Source: a virus. Taken from it: a DNA stretch of 22,062 bases. This document shows positions 13,211-22,037 of this stretch, piece by piece. Position numbers and translations under genes: made by a program. The notes beneath the pieces were generated by a model, which was not told the origin of the DNA, did no database searches, and saw only the letters and a program-made list of their open reading frames with translations. The stretch is from the IMG/VR virus record IMGVR_UViG_3300025769_000951, positions 1 to 22,062 of that record. One strand, written 5' to 3'. Numbering within the stretch: position 1 is the first letter of the stretch; each line of letters starts with the position of its first letter.

Positions 13211-15549
13211 TGGCTGACCCGATACGACTACAAGCAGAATTTACCGACGACCTCGGCAACGATTGGCAGGTAAATATCCACGACAGCGAGTACGTTGGAA
13301 GTATCGTGCCCTTTAAGCTGGGCGCGGATGGTTTTGTGCTGCGCTACAGCGGTAACAACGAAGACCGTTACCAACCCGTAATTGGTAGCGAAGTAACGTT
13401 TACGCTGACGGAAGAAAACAGCGACCATACGACCTTTATGGACTTGTTAGCCACGAACGTCGAAGTTCGGTTTTCGGTAAGCGTTCGCAAAGATCCCGAC
13501 GGCACTGATGAATTTTGGTGGGGCGGCATCTTGTTGCCTGAACAGGTGATTCGGCCGTTTGATTATTACCCGATTCAAAACACGCTTACAGCATCTGACG
13601 ACCTTGGCAATTTGCGCAGCGTCAAATACAACAACGGCGGCAGTGCATACACGGGTATTGAGTCAGGCGTTGAACACTTGTTAAACTGTTTAAACAAGAC
13701 GCGAGCCACGCACCTATGGAGCACGGACGACTTTCTGTACTATGTCAATGATTTTGACAGCACCGATTACACAGGCAGTGACCAGTTAGACGACACGCGC
13801 ATAAGCCATTACGGTCTATACAACCTTGACCAAAACGGCTTAAATCAATATTACAGCGCATTTGAAGTGCTCGAAAGCTTGGCGCGCGTCTTTAACGCCC
13901 GCGTTTTTCAAGCACAGGGGAAATGGTGGTTTTTGCCTGTAGGCGCGCAGAAGTACAGCACGACGCTTACGGTAGAAGGCACGCAGAAGGACGGCACAGC
14001 ACTCACGCAGCAAAGCCTTTCAGCCGCCAAAGCATTCGACAGCAATTTCGAACGCTTGCGCGGTTACGAATACAGCTATTTAGCACCACTCAAGACGGTA
14101 ACACGTACGCGCAGGTTCAACGGCAATTTGCCCGTAATACAGGACAACCTGTTCACCGAATCGCAATTCGGCACGACGTTAAGCGATACGGACATAGATT
14201 ACGACAGTGGTACAATTTTGGCCGTCAGCGGCACGTTCAACTACACTTATAACGGCGACGGTACAAGCACAGGCAACGACCGTGTAAGCCGCGTAGAATT
14301 AGAGTTCACTATAAAGATTGGCACGAAATATCTGCAACGAAACGTAACGTATGTAGGTTCGCAACTTGTATTCAACGGCTTTGGCGACGCTAGCGAATTC
14401 CCGTACGAATACGCGACGCATTCATACGGCGATACAGTGTTAATCAGTTCGCTAAACACGTACACCATAGTCAGCCCCATATTTGACAAGCGCGACGGTG
14501 AAAGCCTTTCCATTCCGTTTTTTATCGAGTTGCCAGCCTTAGCTACTGATGAAAGCGGCCTTGATATAACCGTGGACATCAACGGCATTGACGACACGGG
14601 TGCAACGGATACCGATTTAACAAACACCAGCGACGCGGATTATGAAATCGTCGTCCTGCGAGCCGACGTAATTGGCGACGAACCGTTAGGCGATACCGTA
14701 AGCTTTACCGCTACGAATAGCGATACGGCACGCGCCGATCTCGACCAAGGCGAAGTTCTGTTCGGCGATTATCAAACGGTAAACGCTGACGGTACAATAA
14801 GCTTTATCGAAGGCGTAACACAAACCTTTAGTACTTCATGGCAGTCGCTGAACTACACGGGTACAGGAAAAAGCATTAACAAGCTTGCAGTTTATGAAAT
14901 ACTGGGCGGCCAAGTAAAGCCGACGAGAATACAACGCGGATCGGTTTACGGCTTACCGATTTACATGTGGCAGGTTATCGACGACACGGACGGCGATTAC
15001 GCTTTATTCGAAATGACGTACACGGCACGCAGCCTTACGAACGAAGTAGAAGCGTTTTTAATTAGCCGCGACGTTACTACGGTAACGGCTGACCAAGACG
15101 ACGTAAAAGATACGACCACGCCAATAACGGAAGCCGATGTAGTAAAAGCTGCGACCGCGTTCCAAGCTTCAAACAAAATGCTTGGCGATGGTTACCGAGG
15201 GTACGGCAGCCGTGACCATCGAGTGAACCGTACAATAACCAACAGAGACGGTTCAACCGATAGTGTAGATGACGAAGATTTGCACATCATGAATACGTGG
15301 ACGGGTGGCAATGGTTCGGCTACTTTGTACCTGCCTAAAATCGGCCAAAGCCACGGGCGTATTGTTCAGTTCCATAGCGACAGCACCATAAGCGCGAATA
15401 CATTTGTGACGTTGACAGTAAACCCAAGCGACACAGGCACTACGATTGACGGCGCGAGCAGTTACGACTTTAACCGTGCCTACGATGGAATTACTATCTT
15501 AGGGCACACCGATGACAACTGGTACATAATCCAAAAGAAAGAAAAATGA
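13210..15549 (+). CDS. large tail-tip/baseplate protein
   Basis: A 779-residue protein after the tape measure, mostly beta and rich in Asp/Thr/Tyr. The N-terminal part (about 1-110) resembles the strand-rich domain of distal tail or hub proteins (FEW..GGILLPEQVIRPFDYYP). A middle part has FEVLESLARVFNARVFQAQG with KWWFLPVG, similar to hub proteins that rebuild a beta domain. The C-terminus (about 690-779: LPKIGQSHGRIVQFHSDSTI then TLTVNPSDTGTTIDG) resembles trimeric fibre-tip folds. It is the only large gene here, so it probably combines the Dit and Tal roles, hub and host contact. No peptidase motif was recognised. It shares ATGA with the next gene. Confidence 0.75.
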   Translation: MADPIRLQAEFTDDLGNDWQVNIHDSEYVGSIVPFKLGADGFVLRYSGNNEDRYQPVIGSEVTFTLTEENSDHTTFMDLLATNVEVRFSVSVRKDPDGTDEFWWGGILLPEQVIRPFDYYPIQNTLTASDDLGNLRSVKYNNGGSAYTGIESGVEHLLNCLNKTRATHLWSTDDFLYYVNDFDSTDYTGSDQLDDTRISHYGLYNLDQNGLNQYYSAFEVLESLARVFNARVFQAQGKWWFLPVGAQKYSTTLTVEGTQKDGTALTQQSLSAAKAFDSNFERLRGYEYSYLAPLKTVTRTRRFNGNLPVIQDNLFTESQFGTTLSDTDIDYDSGTILAVSGTFNYTYNGDGTSTGNDRVSRVELEFTIKIGTKYLQRNVTYVGSQLVFNGFGDASEFPYEYATHSYGDTVLISSLNTYTIVSPIFDKRDGESLSIPFFIELPALATDESGLDITVDINGIDDTGATDTDLTNTSDADYEIVVLRADVIGDEPLGDTVSFTATNSDTARADLDQGEVLFGDYQTVNADGTISFIEGVTQTFSTSWQSLNYTGTGKSINKLAVYEILGGQVKPTRIQRGSVYGLPIYMWQVIDDTDGDYALFEMTYTARSLTNEVEAFLISRDVTTVTADQDDVKDTTTPITEADVVKAATAFQASNKMLGDGYRGYGSRDHRVNRTITNRDGSTDSVDDEDLHIMNTWTGGNGSATLYLPKIGQSHGRIVQFHSDSTISANTFVTLTVNPSDTGTTIDGASSYDFNRAYDGITILGHTDDNWYIIQKKEK

Positions 15550-19066: not shown

Positions 19067-19566
19067 TTAAACAACCTCTAACATCTACACAAATTGAACA
19101 GGCAAAGGCCAACGAAAGAGCCTTACCAAAAACGCTTAAATATGACGTAAGCGGAAACATAACCGAAAACAGGCAGGCGGGTTGCATAGGCGAGCTTGCT
19201 TGCGCTTTGTACCTAGGTTGCGAGCTGCAGCACGACTACGAATATGACATCGTGTTAAACGGTTGGAAAATTGACGTGAAAACTATGAAACGTAAATATG
19301 ATCCGCGCGAAGATTGGGTTTGCCGTATACCGATTACCGGGCACATGCAAGATTGCGACATATACGTATTTGCAAGCGTAAAGCACAAAAACGATGCTTT
19401 TGCACCCTACGCGCATTTGTGCGGTTGGGCGTATAAACACGAAGTGCAGAAATGGCCGCAAGTAAAGGAAGGCGACCCGTGGCCTGAAGCACCGGGCAAA
19501 ACGGAAAAAAGCGATGCCTACAAAAGCACCTACGCCAGCTTGCACAAAATGGAGGCGCTACGCTGA
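19063..19566 (+). CDS. PD-(D/E)XK-like nuclease
   Basis: 167 residues with a core that fits the PD-(D/E)XK nuclease fold: E44 in AGCIGELACALYLG, D62 in YEYDIVL, and DVK (71-73) in WKIDVKTM, followed by a DIYVFASVKH strand. Such phage enzymes act as recombination or junction nucleases, or as host-DNA degraders. The block order matches an uncharacterised phage nuclease family. It sits between the HTH protein and the replication initiator, consistent with a role in DNA metabolism. The stop is fused to the next start (TGATG). Confidence 0.7.
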   Translation: MIKQPLTSTQIEQAKANERALPKTLKYDVSGNITENRQAGCIGELACALYLGCELQHDYEYDIVLNGWKIDVKTMKRKYDPREDWVCRIPITGHMQDCDIYVFASVKHKNDAFAPYAHLCGWAYKHEVQKWPQVKEGDPWPEAPGKTEKSDAYKSTYASLHKMEALR

Positions 19567-20309
19567 TGCAACGCAAAGGTATTTTCATACCGTTGGAGCT
19601 TTGGAATCTTGGCGAGCTGCACCCTAACGAACGGGTGTTACTTGCCGAGGTTCTAAACTTCGAATCGCAGGGAAAAGAATGCTTTGCAAGTAATGCGCAC
19701 TTTGCCAATCTGCTCAACGTATCAGAAGCGACCGCACGCGGATACATTTCCAAGCTTTGCAACGCCGGTTTTTTGATTCGCGAAGGCGACAGATACAACC
19801 GACGACTGCGTAAATCTGCGCAAACGAGTGCGCAAATCCGCGCAGACGAGTGCGTAAAATCACGCAAACGAGTGCGTAAATCTACGCAAACGAGTGCGCA
19901 GAATTCAGCACATAATAAAACAGATAATAAAACAGAGAATAAAACACTTAATAAAAGCGCGCATACGCGCGAGGTTGTTTTACCCTTCCAAACGGATACC
20001 TTCGAAAGTGCATGGAACGAATGGAAGGAATACAAGCGCACCGATCACCGATTCAAATACAAAACCGCCCAAAGCGAACAGCGGGCACTAATCAAACTTC
20101 AAAATGAACACCCCACAGAAACAGACGCCATCGAAGCCATCCACACAGCTATCGCCAACGGTTGGAAAGGGCTTGTATTTGGCAAGTCCAAGAATGGCCG
20201 ACCTAACGCCCGAAGAGCGCAAAACCTTGAAAGCGATGTCAACCGCGAAAAGCTTGCAGAATTTGCAAGAACAGGACGTATCGACGCTGACGGTGGAAAC
20301 GTGCTTTAA
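19566..20309 (+). CDS. replication initiator with origin inside its gene
   Basis: A 247-residue protein. Residues 1-78 form a winged-helix DNA-binding domain (ELHPNERVLLAEVLNFESQG, then FANLLNVSEATARGYISKLC) as in lambda O-like and other phage replisome organisers. Residues 79-135 are a low-complexity, basic linker encoded by the iterons and AT-rich repeats. Residues 140-247 are a C-terminal domain with SAWNEWKEYKRTDHRFKYKT and EAIHTAIANGWKGLVFGK, typical of phage replication proteins that recruit the helicase or its loader. The protein should bind its own gene to start replication. The start is fused to the previous stop. Its 3' end overlaps the next gene by up to 116 nt. Confidence 0.88.
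   Translation: MQRKGIFIPLELWNLGELHPNERVLLAEVLNFESQGKECFASNAHFANLLNVSEATARGYISKLCNAGFLIREGDRYNRRLRKSAQTSAQIRADECVKSRKRVRKSTQTSAQNSAHNKTDNKTENKTLNKSAHTREVVLPFQTDTFESAWNEWKEYKRTDHRFKYKTAQSEQRALIKLQNEHPTETDAIEAIHTAIANGWKGLVFGKSKNGRPNARRAQNLESDVNREKLAEFARTGRIDADGGNVL
19807..19894 (+). repeat. origin iterons, four 22-bp direct repeats
   Basis: Copies at 19807-19828, 19829-19850, 19851-19872 and 19873-19894, head to tail with no spacer; a decayed fifth begins at 19895. Each has the form TGCGYAAATC, then YRCGCA, then RACGAG. The first 16 bases are an inverted repeat, TGCG...CGCA, and extended arms covary: TGCGC/GCGCA in copy 2, TGCGT/ACGCA in copy 3, TGCGTA/TACGCA in copy 4. They lie inside the initiator gene, as lambda iterons lie in gene O. 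They are expected to be bound by the winged-helix domain of the initiator. Confidence 0.9.
19912..19957 (+). repeat. AT-rich 12-bp repeats, likely unwinding element
   Basis: Four units beginning AATAAAA (aataaaacagat, aataaaacagag, aataaaacactt, aataaaag) directly after the iterons. Strongly A-rich on the + strand within a GC-balanced genome, they fit a DNA unwinding element. Because 12 is a multiple of three they encode an in-frame NKTD, NKTE, NKTL, NKSA repeat. Confidence 0.8.
19957..19970 (+). other. GC-rich hairpin at the edge of the origin
   Basis: GCGCG (19957-19961), loop CATA, CGCGC (19966-19970). It follows the AT-rich repeats and may bound the unwound region or act as a loading or priming hairpin. 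The stem is only five pairs, so it could be chance. Confidence 0.4.
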
Positions 20310-20811
20310 GGGCACGAACGTACAGACCGCCATGAAGGTGGACGAGGTAGCCACGCGGGCCGCACTGGTCGCCATGATTACCCGAACGGTAAAATTCATC
20401 GACGCCAACAAGACGTTAACCACGCCGGAGGAAATCAGCCTTACGATAAACGAACTTTTGAAAACATACCCCTGCTTCACCATTGAGGATTGGCGGCTGT
20501 GCTGCTACCACATGGCGAAGGAAGTTTATGGACCGTATTACGAACGCTTGAAGCTGGCGCAGTTCGTCGAGTGCTTCGGCAAGTACAACCAAGCAAAAGC
20601 GCCGATCGTGCAAACGATTCGCGACATGGAACGGCAGGACTTCGAACGCGAGATGAAAGAGGCTATACGCTACCTGCAACCCGAATACGCGACGCAGACG
20701 AACCCACAGGCCGCACGCGTGAGCGCGCCGGAATGGATGCGAGGCGAAGACCGGCTAACGTACACCGAACGCGAAGAGATGGAGAACCGAGCAAAACAAG
20801 CGAAGCAATGA
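20194..20811 (+). CDS. replication-region protein downstream of initiator (205 aa)
   Basis: Helical protein. The frame is open from 20104, but reasonable starts are ATG 20194 (MADLTPEERKTLKAM), 20236 or 20332. The first would overlap the initiator by 116 nt; the last gives 160 residues with no overlap. The core, TRTVKFIDANKTLTTPEEIS, then ELLKTYPCFTIEDWRLCCYH and KEVYGPYYERLKLAQFVECF, resembles a Bacteroidota phage/plasmid family near replication genes whose function is unclear, perhaps a helicase loader or primase partner. The C-terminus is a charged helix (LTYTEREEMENRAKQAKQ). It shares ATGA with the next gene. Confidence 0.7.
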   Translation: MADLTPEERKTLKAMSTAKSLQNLQEQDVSTLTVETCFKGTNVQTAMKVDEVATRAALVAMITRTVKFIDANKTLTTPEEISLTINELLKTYPCFTIEDWRLCCYHMAKEVYGPYYERLKLAQFVECFGKYNQAKAPIVQTIRDMERQDFEREMKEAIRYLQPEYATQTNPQAARVSAPEWMRGEDRLTYTEREEMENRAKQAKQ

Positions 20812-21200
20812 CACCAATCGAACGCTTTTGGCTCGACCTCATCGACGGGCGCAAACACCACATACAGACGCTGTACGGCACGGACGCCATGCAACGGTAT
20901 CGGCCGCATCCGATGGAACGCGAATACTTCGTTAACAACAACGGGCATATATGCAACCACCCCGAAGTGCTGAACTATAACCGCCGGTTCTACGACTACT
21001 GCGAAGAGCATTACCAAGAACAAAAGCAACGATACCTGCAGCAGATCGAGGCAAACAAACGCAAGTACGAAGCCAGCAGCAGCTACAAGGCGCTGCAACG
21101 CGAACGCGAAGAATTGGTATCGTACATTCGGGGTATAACCGTACGCGATGCCAGCAAAAAAGAAACTAACTCACGCACAACTAAAAAAGAAAGTCGATGA
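20808..21200 (+). CDS. unknown early protein with C-terminal coiled coil (130 aa)
   Basis: The real start is ATG 20808 (ATGA with the previous stop); the open frame upstream is a shadow of the preceding gene. N-terminal TPIERFWLDLIDGRKHHIQT, then an aromatic section (MEREYFVNNNGHICNHPEVL), then a long charged helix (EHYQEQKQRYLQQIEANKRK and on) with coiled-coil spacing. The protein is not recognised. It overlaps the NinG-like gene by 53 nt, and its last 17 residues are Lys/Ser/Thr-rich, so the extreme end may be unconstrained. Confidence 0.65.
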   Translation: MTPIERFWLDLIDGRKHHIQTLYGTDAMQRYRPHPMEREYFVNNNGHICNHPEVLNYNRRFYDYCEEHYQEQKQRYLQQIEANKRKYEASSSYKALQREREELVSYIRGITVRDASKKETNSRTTKKESR

Positions 21201-21639
21201 ATGGTTCAGCAAATACATACGTTGGCAAGCGGCCGACCGTGACGGTAACGCTGACTGCTTCACCTGCGGCAAGACGCTGCACGCGTCCAAACTCCAAGCT
21301 GGTCATTTCGTTTCCCGCAGGTACGCCGTGCATAGGTGGGAAGCTGACAATGTCCGACCGCAATGCGTTGCCTGCAATCTTTACGCCCAAGGAGAACAGT
21401 GGATTTTTGGCCGCAATATTGACCTGCAACAGCCCGGAAGAGCTGAAGAGCTTATGCGAACAAAGAACGAAAGCCGAAAGTTCACGGTTGCAGAACTACG
21501 AAACTTATATGATCATTACCGGAATGAATCCCTACGAATCGCGGAGCGAAAGAACGTCGCGCCTAGGCCGAGAGAAGCGGCAGAAGTACGACGAACTAAG
21601 GGAAGCAAGGAACGCCCTATTAAACGCCGGCCCGGATGA
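21148..21639 (+). CDS. ninG: NinG-like (Rap) recombination nuclease
   Basis: A 163-residue protein with the hallmark zinc-binding pattern of lambda NinG/Rap: CFTCGK (C37, C40), LQAGHFVSRR (H53), NVRPQCVACNLYAQG (C73, C76, N77), then RNIDLQQPGRAEELM. The family cleaves branched recombination intermediates and helps resolve phage recombination. The basic N-terminus (PAKKKLTHAQLKKKVDEWFS) is common in the family. The Arg/Pro-rich C-terminus (after about residue 135) is read in an overlap with the next gene, and such a tail is atypical, so the true protein may be functionally complete by about residue 135. Confidence 0.88.
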   Translation: MPAKKKLTHAQLKKKVDEWFSKYIRWQAADRDGNADCFTCGKTLHASKLQAGHFVSRRYAVHRWEADNVRPQCVACNLYAQGEQWIFGRNIDLQQPGRAEELMRTKNESRKFTVAELRNLYDHYRNESLRIAERKNVAPRPREAAEVRRTKGSKERPIKRRPG

Positions 21640-21748
21640 TTACCCAAGCAACGGAAAGGAATGGCGATGGAATCAATTCAAGCGCATTAACAAAGAGTTG
21701 TACGAACTAACGGGCCACCACGGTTACAACTATGGCAAGCATACCTAA
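21509..21748 (+). CDS. unknown protein (79 aa) overlapping ninG
   Basis: ATG 21509 or 21524, in a frame different from ninG and overlapping it by about 130 nt. The part after ninG (GPDDYPSNGKEWRWNQFKRI, then NKELYELTGHHGYNYGKHT) looks like a natural helical protein with a Trp/Arg-rich patch. The frame is open upstream to 21197, and a start at 21350 is possible (MSDRNALPAIFTPKENSGFL), which would make nearly 290 nt of dual coding. No family is recognised. The last 17 nt overlap the HNH gene. Confidence 0.5.
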   Translation: MIITGMNPYESRSERTSRLGREKRQKYDELREARNALLNAGPDDYPSNGKEWRWNQFKRINKELYELTGHHGYNYGKHT

Positions 21749-22037
21749 ACGACACAGGCCCAGCCCGTGGCACAACACACAACGCAAGCCGGGCGAACGT
21801 GTGAACCGCGAGCCACGATATAGCAGCACGCGCTGGCGTAAACTGCGCGCGCTATTCCTGCGCGAGAATCCCACATGCGTAGAGTGCGGACACCTTGCGA
21901 ACGTATGCGACCACATAACGCCCGTAACACAGGGCGGCGACTTTTGGCACGGGCCATTTCAAGCCATGTGCGACAGCTGCCATGCACGTAAGTCACGCAC
22001 AGAGCGCAAAGATTTGCAAGGGGGTAGGGGGTTTTGA
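21732..22037 (+). CDS. HNH endonuclease (packaging-linked)
   Basis: A 101-residue protein with a zinc-stabilised HNH motif: CVECG (C49, C52), VCDHITPVTQGGD (D60, H61) and AMCDSCHARKS (C80, C83, H84). The middle Asn usually seen as DNLQ is replaced here by a G-P-F-Q context, so the second catalytic position is not certain. HNH proteins of this type lie next to the terminase genes in cos-type phages and are needed for end cleavage in HK97-like systems. At the right edge of the window it would be directly upstream of terS if the ends join. N-terminal RHRPSPWHNTQRKPGERVNR is basic. Confidence 0.9.
   Translation: MASIPKRHRPSPWHNTQRKPGERVNREPRYSSTRWRKLRALFLRENPTCVECGHLANVCDHITPVTQGGDFWHGPFQAMCDSCHARKSRTERKDLQGGRGF

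Follow-up and report, generated by a model that had tools for sequence, protein, structure and literature searches.

The virus record analysed here, a stretch of 22,062 bases that we refer to as the window, carries a block of short tandem repeats in the middle of a protein-coding gene, and the question this locus raises is what such a block is doing inside coding sequence. Here we report that the segment at 19802-19956 is most likely, and with only modest doubt, the replication origin of the phage, contained in the gene that encodes its initiator; we infer origin activity, iteron binding and unwinding for this segment. For phages whose hosts are uncultured and probably belong to the Bacteroidota, the replication origin has seldom been identified, and a narrow literature search found no paper on origins in Bacteroidota phages. 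A conserved in-gene array would allow an origin and its cognate domain to be read directly from sequence.

TRF places a repeat of period 22 and 4.4 copies at 19802-19898 with a score of 136, well above that of any other repeat in the 22 kb. On the plus strand it comprises four full iterons at 19802-19823 (ACGACTGCGTAAATCTGCGCAA), 19824-19845 (ACGAGTGCGCAAATCCGCGCAG), 19846-19867 (ACGAGTGCGTAAAATCACGCAA) and 19868-19889 (ACGAGTGCGTAAATCTACGCAA). The four 22-bp repeats described in the initial annotation are thereby confirmed, but a fifth plus-strand unit at 19890-19911 (ACGAGTGCGCAGAATTCAGCAC; TGCGCAGAATTCAGCA), degenerate in this lineage, had gone uncounted. Its right arm is the degenerate one, and it contains GAATTC; the unit is well conserved across 35 distinct relatives, its spacer being less variable there than those of the first three copies, and it forms a better dyad in other types, for example in the L025 group. 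Each full copy holds the dyad TGCGY-n-CGCA with 12-14 of 16 dyad matches (the best, 14/16, in the fourth), a background of 0.4% of window 16-mers reaching 12. At a lag of 22, 55 of 66 positions in the array match, against maxima of 39 in dinucleotide shuffles of the whole window, 37 in the rest of the window and 47 when codons are resampled to give the same peptide; none of 2000 such resamplings matched the observed periodicity. A search for iteron matches elsewhere in the window with up to three mismatches returned 17 against 12 expected, and those with few mismatches fell within the array, so the window contains no second array.

AT-rich 12-nt repeats follow at 19912-19956 on the plus strand, as initially described, and constitute a candidate unwinding element. 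TRF reports them with period 12, 3.8 copies and a score of 69 (second best in the window), the coding strand is A-rich, and no other 45-bp segment of the window has so low a stability by nearest-neighbour energy. Taken alone, the 12-nt repeat is weaker than the 22-nt array, 5 of 2000 codon resamplings reaching it.

The gene in which these elements lie (19566-20309, plus strand; 247 aa) had been read as that of a winged-helix initiator, and this holds: HTH_36 (PF13730) is matched at 27.5 bits, above the Pfam curated cut-off of 25, and PHROG replication initiation and O-like families are matched down to E 1e-13, with PHROG 678, 391 and 345 at E 1.7e-11, 5.9e-8 and 7.8e-6. An AF2 model built from 30 natural relatives has pLDDT mostly 68-86 in two domains, a winged helix at residues of about 10-83 and a three-helix C-terminal domain at about 144-198 followed by a tail, and under 50 in the linker between them (87-133). 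The array and AT tract correspond to codons 79-131, and the origin thus overlaps a linker predicted to be disordered, which is why the protein could tolerate an origin there.

One alternative concerns ancestry rather than function: the locus may be an in-gene origin that descends from plasmids of the RepA_N/pSK41-like kind, with no lambdoid descent and a likeness to lambda that is convergent, a reading that we consider possible though somewhat doubtful. In its favor, the top Foldseek rows for the N-domain are 4pql, 5kbj and 4pt7, which we take to be initiator/Rep N-domains of pSK41-type Rep, together with DnaD; none of these matches, however, reaches significance (best E 2.7e-3), and the fold similarity (VIA Z 8.9, rmsd 6.0 over 96 residues) is tied with that to other winged helices. 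Among Pfam matches to E 1, the window initiator has neither PF04492 (Phage_rep_O), an absence that favors plasmid descent, nor PF06970 (RepA_N), and by these profiles it appears to be neither a Phage_rep_O protein like lambda O nor a RepA_N member. The initial annotation had called the phage unrelated to lambda. The lack of a PF04492 match and an hhalign probability of 1.2 against the single lambda O sequence give no support to direct homology with lambda O. In the PHROG comparison, lambda O itself (PF04492 at 123 bits) matches families 678, 391 and 345, the same three as the window protein. These shared O-like families speak against plasmid descent and make common winged-helix ancestry with lambda O possible. 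The arrangement of pSK41, with its Rep boxes placed centrally in rep where they code for a linker, and the HTH_36 N-domain of pPR9 again favor a plasmid source (PMC5703833). The mechanism would be the same under either descent.

How general the array is was assessed in 84 distinct genes, obtained by a protein scan (34 loci) and by a scan whose sole queries were two C-terminal peptides (80); many relatives come from the latter and were therefore not picked for having repeats. Inspection of aligned sequences assigned an HTH_36-like N-domain to 68 of the 81 that were testable. An in-gene array with a period of 16-23 that exceeds same-peptide resampling is present in every one of the 68 (p=1/201 in 64 genes and 0.015-0.04 in the other four, which are type D). 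When the 45-mers of each locus are ranked by stability, the segment directly after the array falls within the least stable 2%, again in 68 of 68. The relatives share kinship, and these counts are not independent events. The proposed lambda order, iterons and then an AT-rich tract within the gene, is thus kept throughout, and no relative without iterons turned up among the 68. The 13 relatives with other N-domains are mostly without an array, and nine are without an unstable tract. Five genes that have only the C-terminal domain in common and possess different N-domains (L035, L036, L116, L118 and L119) show 11-, 15- or 18-nt low-complexity repeats in the same place, coding for KESK-type or similar linkers; these could represent a further type of origin, or no more than coding repeats. 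No in-gene array was found in the Bacteroides phage and Leptospira LE1 proteins that resemble the winged helix, and a search for plasmid relatives gave one weak Leptospira match.

Iteron sequences differ wholly between types, among them TGCGTAAATCTACGCA, TGCTCAAAAATGAGCA, GGTGGTAC-AAAC-GTACCA, GGGTGGGCGCAAACGGAC, GTAGCGTGGACGCTAC and CCGGCAGCCGG. With C-domain distance removed, iteron distance follows winged-helix distance (partial Mantel r 0.45, 0/2000 permutations), and the converse partial correlation is null (r 0.05, p 0.31). The changes are concerted, being symmetric in both dyad arms and common to all copies, and they pair with particular helices: TGCG...CGCA with ATARGYI, and GCTC...GAGC with STARRYL/ATAKRYL. 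In the pairs L034/L022 and L055/L017, identity stays at about 30-70% across the N-domain, array and AT tract and rises to 80-100% (mostly over 90%) in most of the C-domain, and a further cassette-swap pair, L092/L091, also regains 96% identity upstream. From this jump in identity it follows that the unit of exchange is the winged helix with its iterons and AT tract. Covariation and cassette swaps in the aligned genes indicate that repeat sequence and winged helix are matched to each other, and that the two are transferred together with the AT tract as a single cassette. A broader interpretation, to which we give a little less than an even chance, is that of a natural plug-in system, in which a winged helix, its cognate iterons and the unwinding tract pass as a whole from phage to phage, joined at the boundary with a shared helicase-recruiting domain, and the 22-bp phase is upheld in all three reading frames. 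If true, this would give rise to new specificities of replication and, through them, to compatible replicons, and the natural variants could be used to work out a legible code of protein-DNA recognition, for which the natural repeat types are a ready data set.

Operators likewise take the form of dyad repeats recognized by a winged helix, and the winged helix of the window protein resembles MarR/SlyA regulators in both sequence and fold. The repeats might accordingly be operator or partition sites, serving autorepression or acting as a parS-like centromere, with replication starting elsewhere. We regard this as quite unlikely: the array adjoins one of the least stable tracts of its locus in 68/68 relatives, the protein matches replication-initiation families, the 22 kb hold no further strong array, and the array lies mid-gene, the sole sigma-70-like site found in 17.0-22.1 kb being at 19244-19271. 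As a point against an in-gene origin, binding sites that a protein has within its own gene could also serve autoregulation. The GC-skew inflection that the initial annotation proposed to look for near 19.9 kb gave no usable support; the raw cumulative extreme at 19,695 is a maximum and not a minimum (block-shuffle p=0.085), the detrended extremes lie at 13,554 and 2,839, away from the array, and skew is uninformative as an origin marker in this window.

The strongest single result of the analysis is a test of phase. In 43 type-A genes the array aligns ungapped and in the same frame, with iteron number and phase kept, which is the outcome that alignment of relatives had been proposed to reveal. 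Across 35 distinct type-A sequences, 22-nt phase explains column entropy over four units with R2 0.68 (0/5000 permutations), whereas codon position explains none of it (R2 0.006, p 0.78). The control segments behave in the opposite way: codon phase gives R2 0.37 in the 88 nt before the array (winged helix) and 0.27 in the first 88 nt of the C-domain, and 22-nt phase is not significant in either. Since a 22-nt period returns to frame only after 66 nt, as was initially pointed out, RKSAQTSAQ and RKSTQTSAQ recur 22 residues apart in the linker. Selection on the array therefore acts at the DNA level and takes precedence over the reading frame, and the claim that the DNA rather than the peptide is conserved was correct. 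A tandem-repeat basic/polar linker kept for its peptide, with DNA repetition as a by-product, would suit the low-complexity sequence RKSAQTSAQ...RKSTQTSAQ but has a negligible chance of being right, given that same-peptide resampling never attains the observed periodicity, that codon phase accounts for no variability, and that the linkers of other types are unrelated peptides which nevertheless retain 22-nt dyad repeats; as sole cause of the repeats, a peptide feature is refuted by the phase test. A 22-nt phase that beats the codon is clean proof of DNA-level selection in coding sequence, and the test is applicable to any initiator gene.

Returning to the array as an origin, initiation would begin with the N-terminal winged helix binding the dyad repeats, probably as one dimer per 22-bp unit; with units about two helical turns apart, the bound copies would stack on one face. 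The nucleoprotein complex would then open the adjoining AT-rich 12-mers, and the C-terminal helical domain, which presumably resembles DnaD/DnaT helicase-loading domains, would recruit the host helicase, perhaps together with the product of the downstream gene. That gene (20194-20811, plus strand; 205 aa) overlaps the 3' end of the initiator gene by up to 116 nt, in the position of lambda P, and by this position may encode a helicase loader. Its product matches phrog_35728 (unknown function; E 9e-9), no PDB relative of it was found, and its model (pLDDT 52) is too poor for use; the lack of a recognized helicase loader adjoining the array, beside a protein with no informative match, counts against an in-gene origin.

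The small GC hairpin noted initially is present (GCGCG-CATA-CGCGC, 19957-19971, strand not assigned; -7.4 kcal/mol as DNA, z -1.7 alone), but it is kept, with different stems, in some lineages only. In several of these the position is retained, with 91% of cells paired (0/500 shuffles) and seven cells changed on both sides, although partners slid by -2 still pair in 73%; the hairpin is absent in L015-L023, L030, L033 and L055. A general third element is thereby ruled out, and the hairpin is accessory at most. Read on the minus strand it is followed by TTTTATTA and, at the right-hand end of the AT tract, resembles an intrinsic terminator that would stop antisense transcripts; other lineages show the same form, for example L096/L099 (GGGCGTTTTCGCCC then TTTTAGT).

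A NinG/Rap-like junction endonuclease (21148-21639) and an HNH endonuclease (21732-22037) come after the replication genes, and the large terminase gene starts at 363; for this reason the record may cover nearly the whole of a circularly permuted genome. Terminal repeats were looked for in the record and none were found. The assignment to a Bacteroidota phage is likely as regards the host but not proven: relatives of the C-domain in named genomes are Bacteroidota in 7/7 cases, and Pfam identifies near the initiator a DUF3127 gene, of a family that we take to be mainly found in Bacteroidota. The terminase was rejected as a host marker, its nearest relatives (41%, Streptococcus and gut phages) being too distant.

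By analogy, the window system would work like ori-lambda and the plasmid pSK41 rep, and an in-gene iteron origin is of an already known kind. As in lambda, dyad iterons stand mid-gene and are followed by an AT-rich tract, within the gene of an initiator with an N-terminal DNA-binding domain; A outnumbers T on the coding strand of the tract (A/(A+T) of 0.76 for lambda and 0.79 for the window), and the next gene overlaps the 3' end of the initiator gene. Lambda O contains four iterons mid-gene, at 39034, 39054, 39078 and 39101, joined to a 38-bp AT-rich sequence (PMC3349717). Unlike those of the window, spaced exactly 22, 22, 22 and 22 nt, the lambda iterons are 18 bp long, spaced 20, 24 and 23 nt, and unrelated in sequence; the N-domain is Phage_rep_O in lambda and HTH_36 in the window, no P is recognizable in the window, and some window-type lineages have a hairpin after the AT tract. 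Iteron number varies among relatives, as in Stx lambdoid phages, which have 4 to 6 (PMC7466680): type-D L034 has one more 18-nt repeat, or six codons, than L033, an in-frame change. According to older literature as cited in PMC6022878, O specificity has been exchanged between lambda, phi80 and 82.

The pSK41 rep gene has four Rep boxes at its center, its ori encoding a linker, and the chimera pPR9 bears a swapped N-domain (PF13730, HTH_36) and origin on a nearly identical C-domain (PMC5703833). A winged-helix N-domain and a central, origin-coded linker are features of the window protein as well, its N-domain being HTH_36 as in pPR9. The differences are that pSK41 is a staphylococcal plasmid, that a RepA_N domain is not detected in the window protein, and that the pSK41 C-domain, which binds DnaG, may not be related to that of the window protein. 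An HTH_36 N-domain (PF13730) like that of the window initiator is also found in Cellulophaga phage phi39:1 gp41 (L140), which has near-perfect in-gene dyad repeats of 21-23 nt, as do L150 and L153, initiator-like wHTH genes from genomes that were sampled in the phylum to which Segetibacter belongs (GACAAAATTGTC; AGAAG-AAAA-CTTCT; GGACA-AAAA-TGTCC). These three differ from the window in having another C-domain and 2.7-3 copies, and they are unannotated as origins; as in-gene dyad repeats occur in them too, the layout is widespread.
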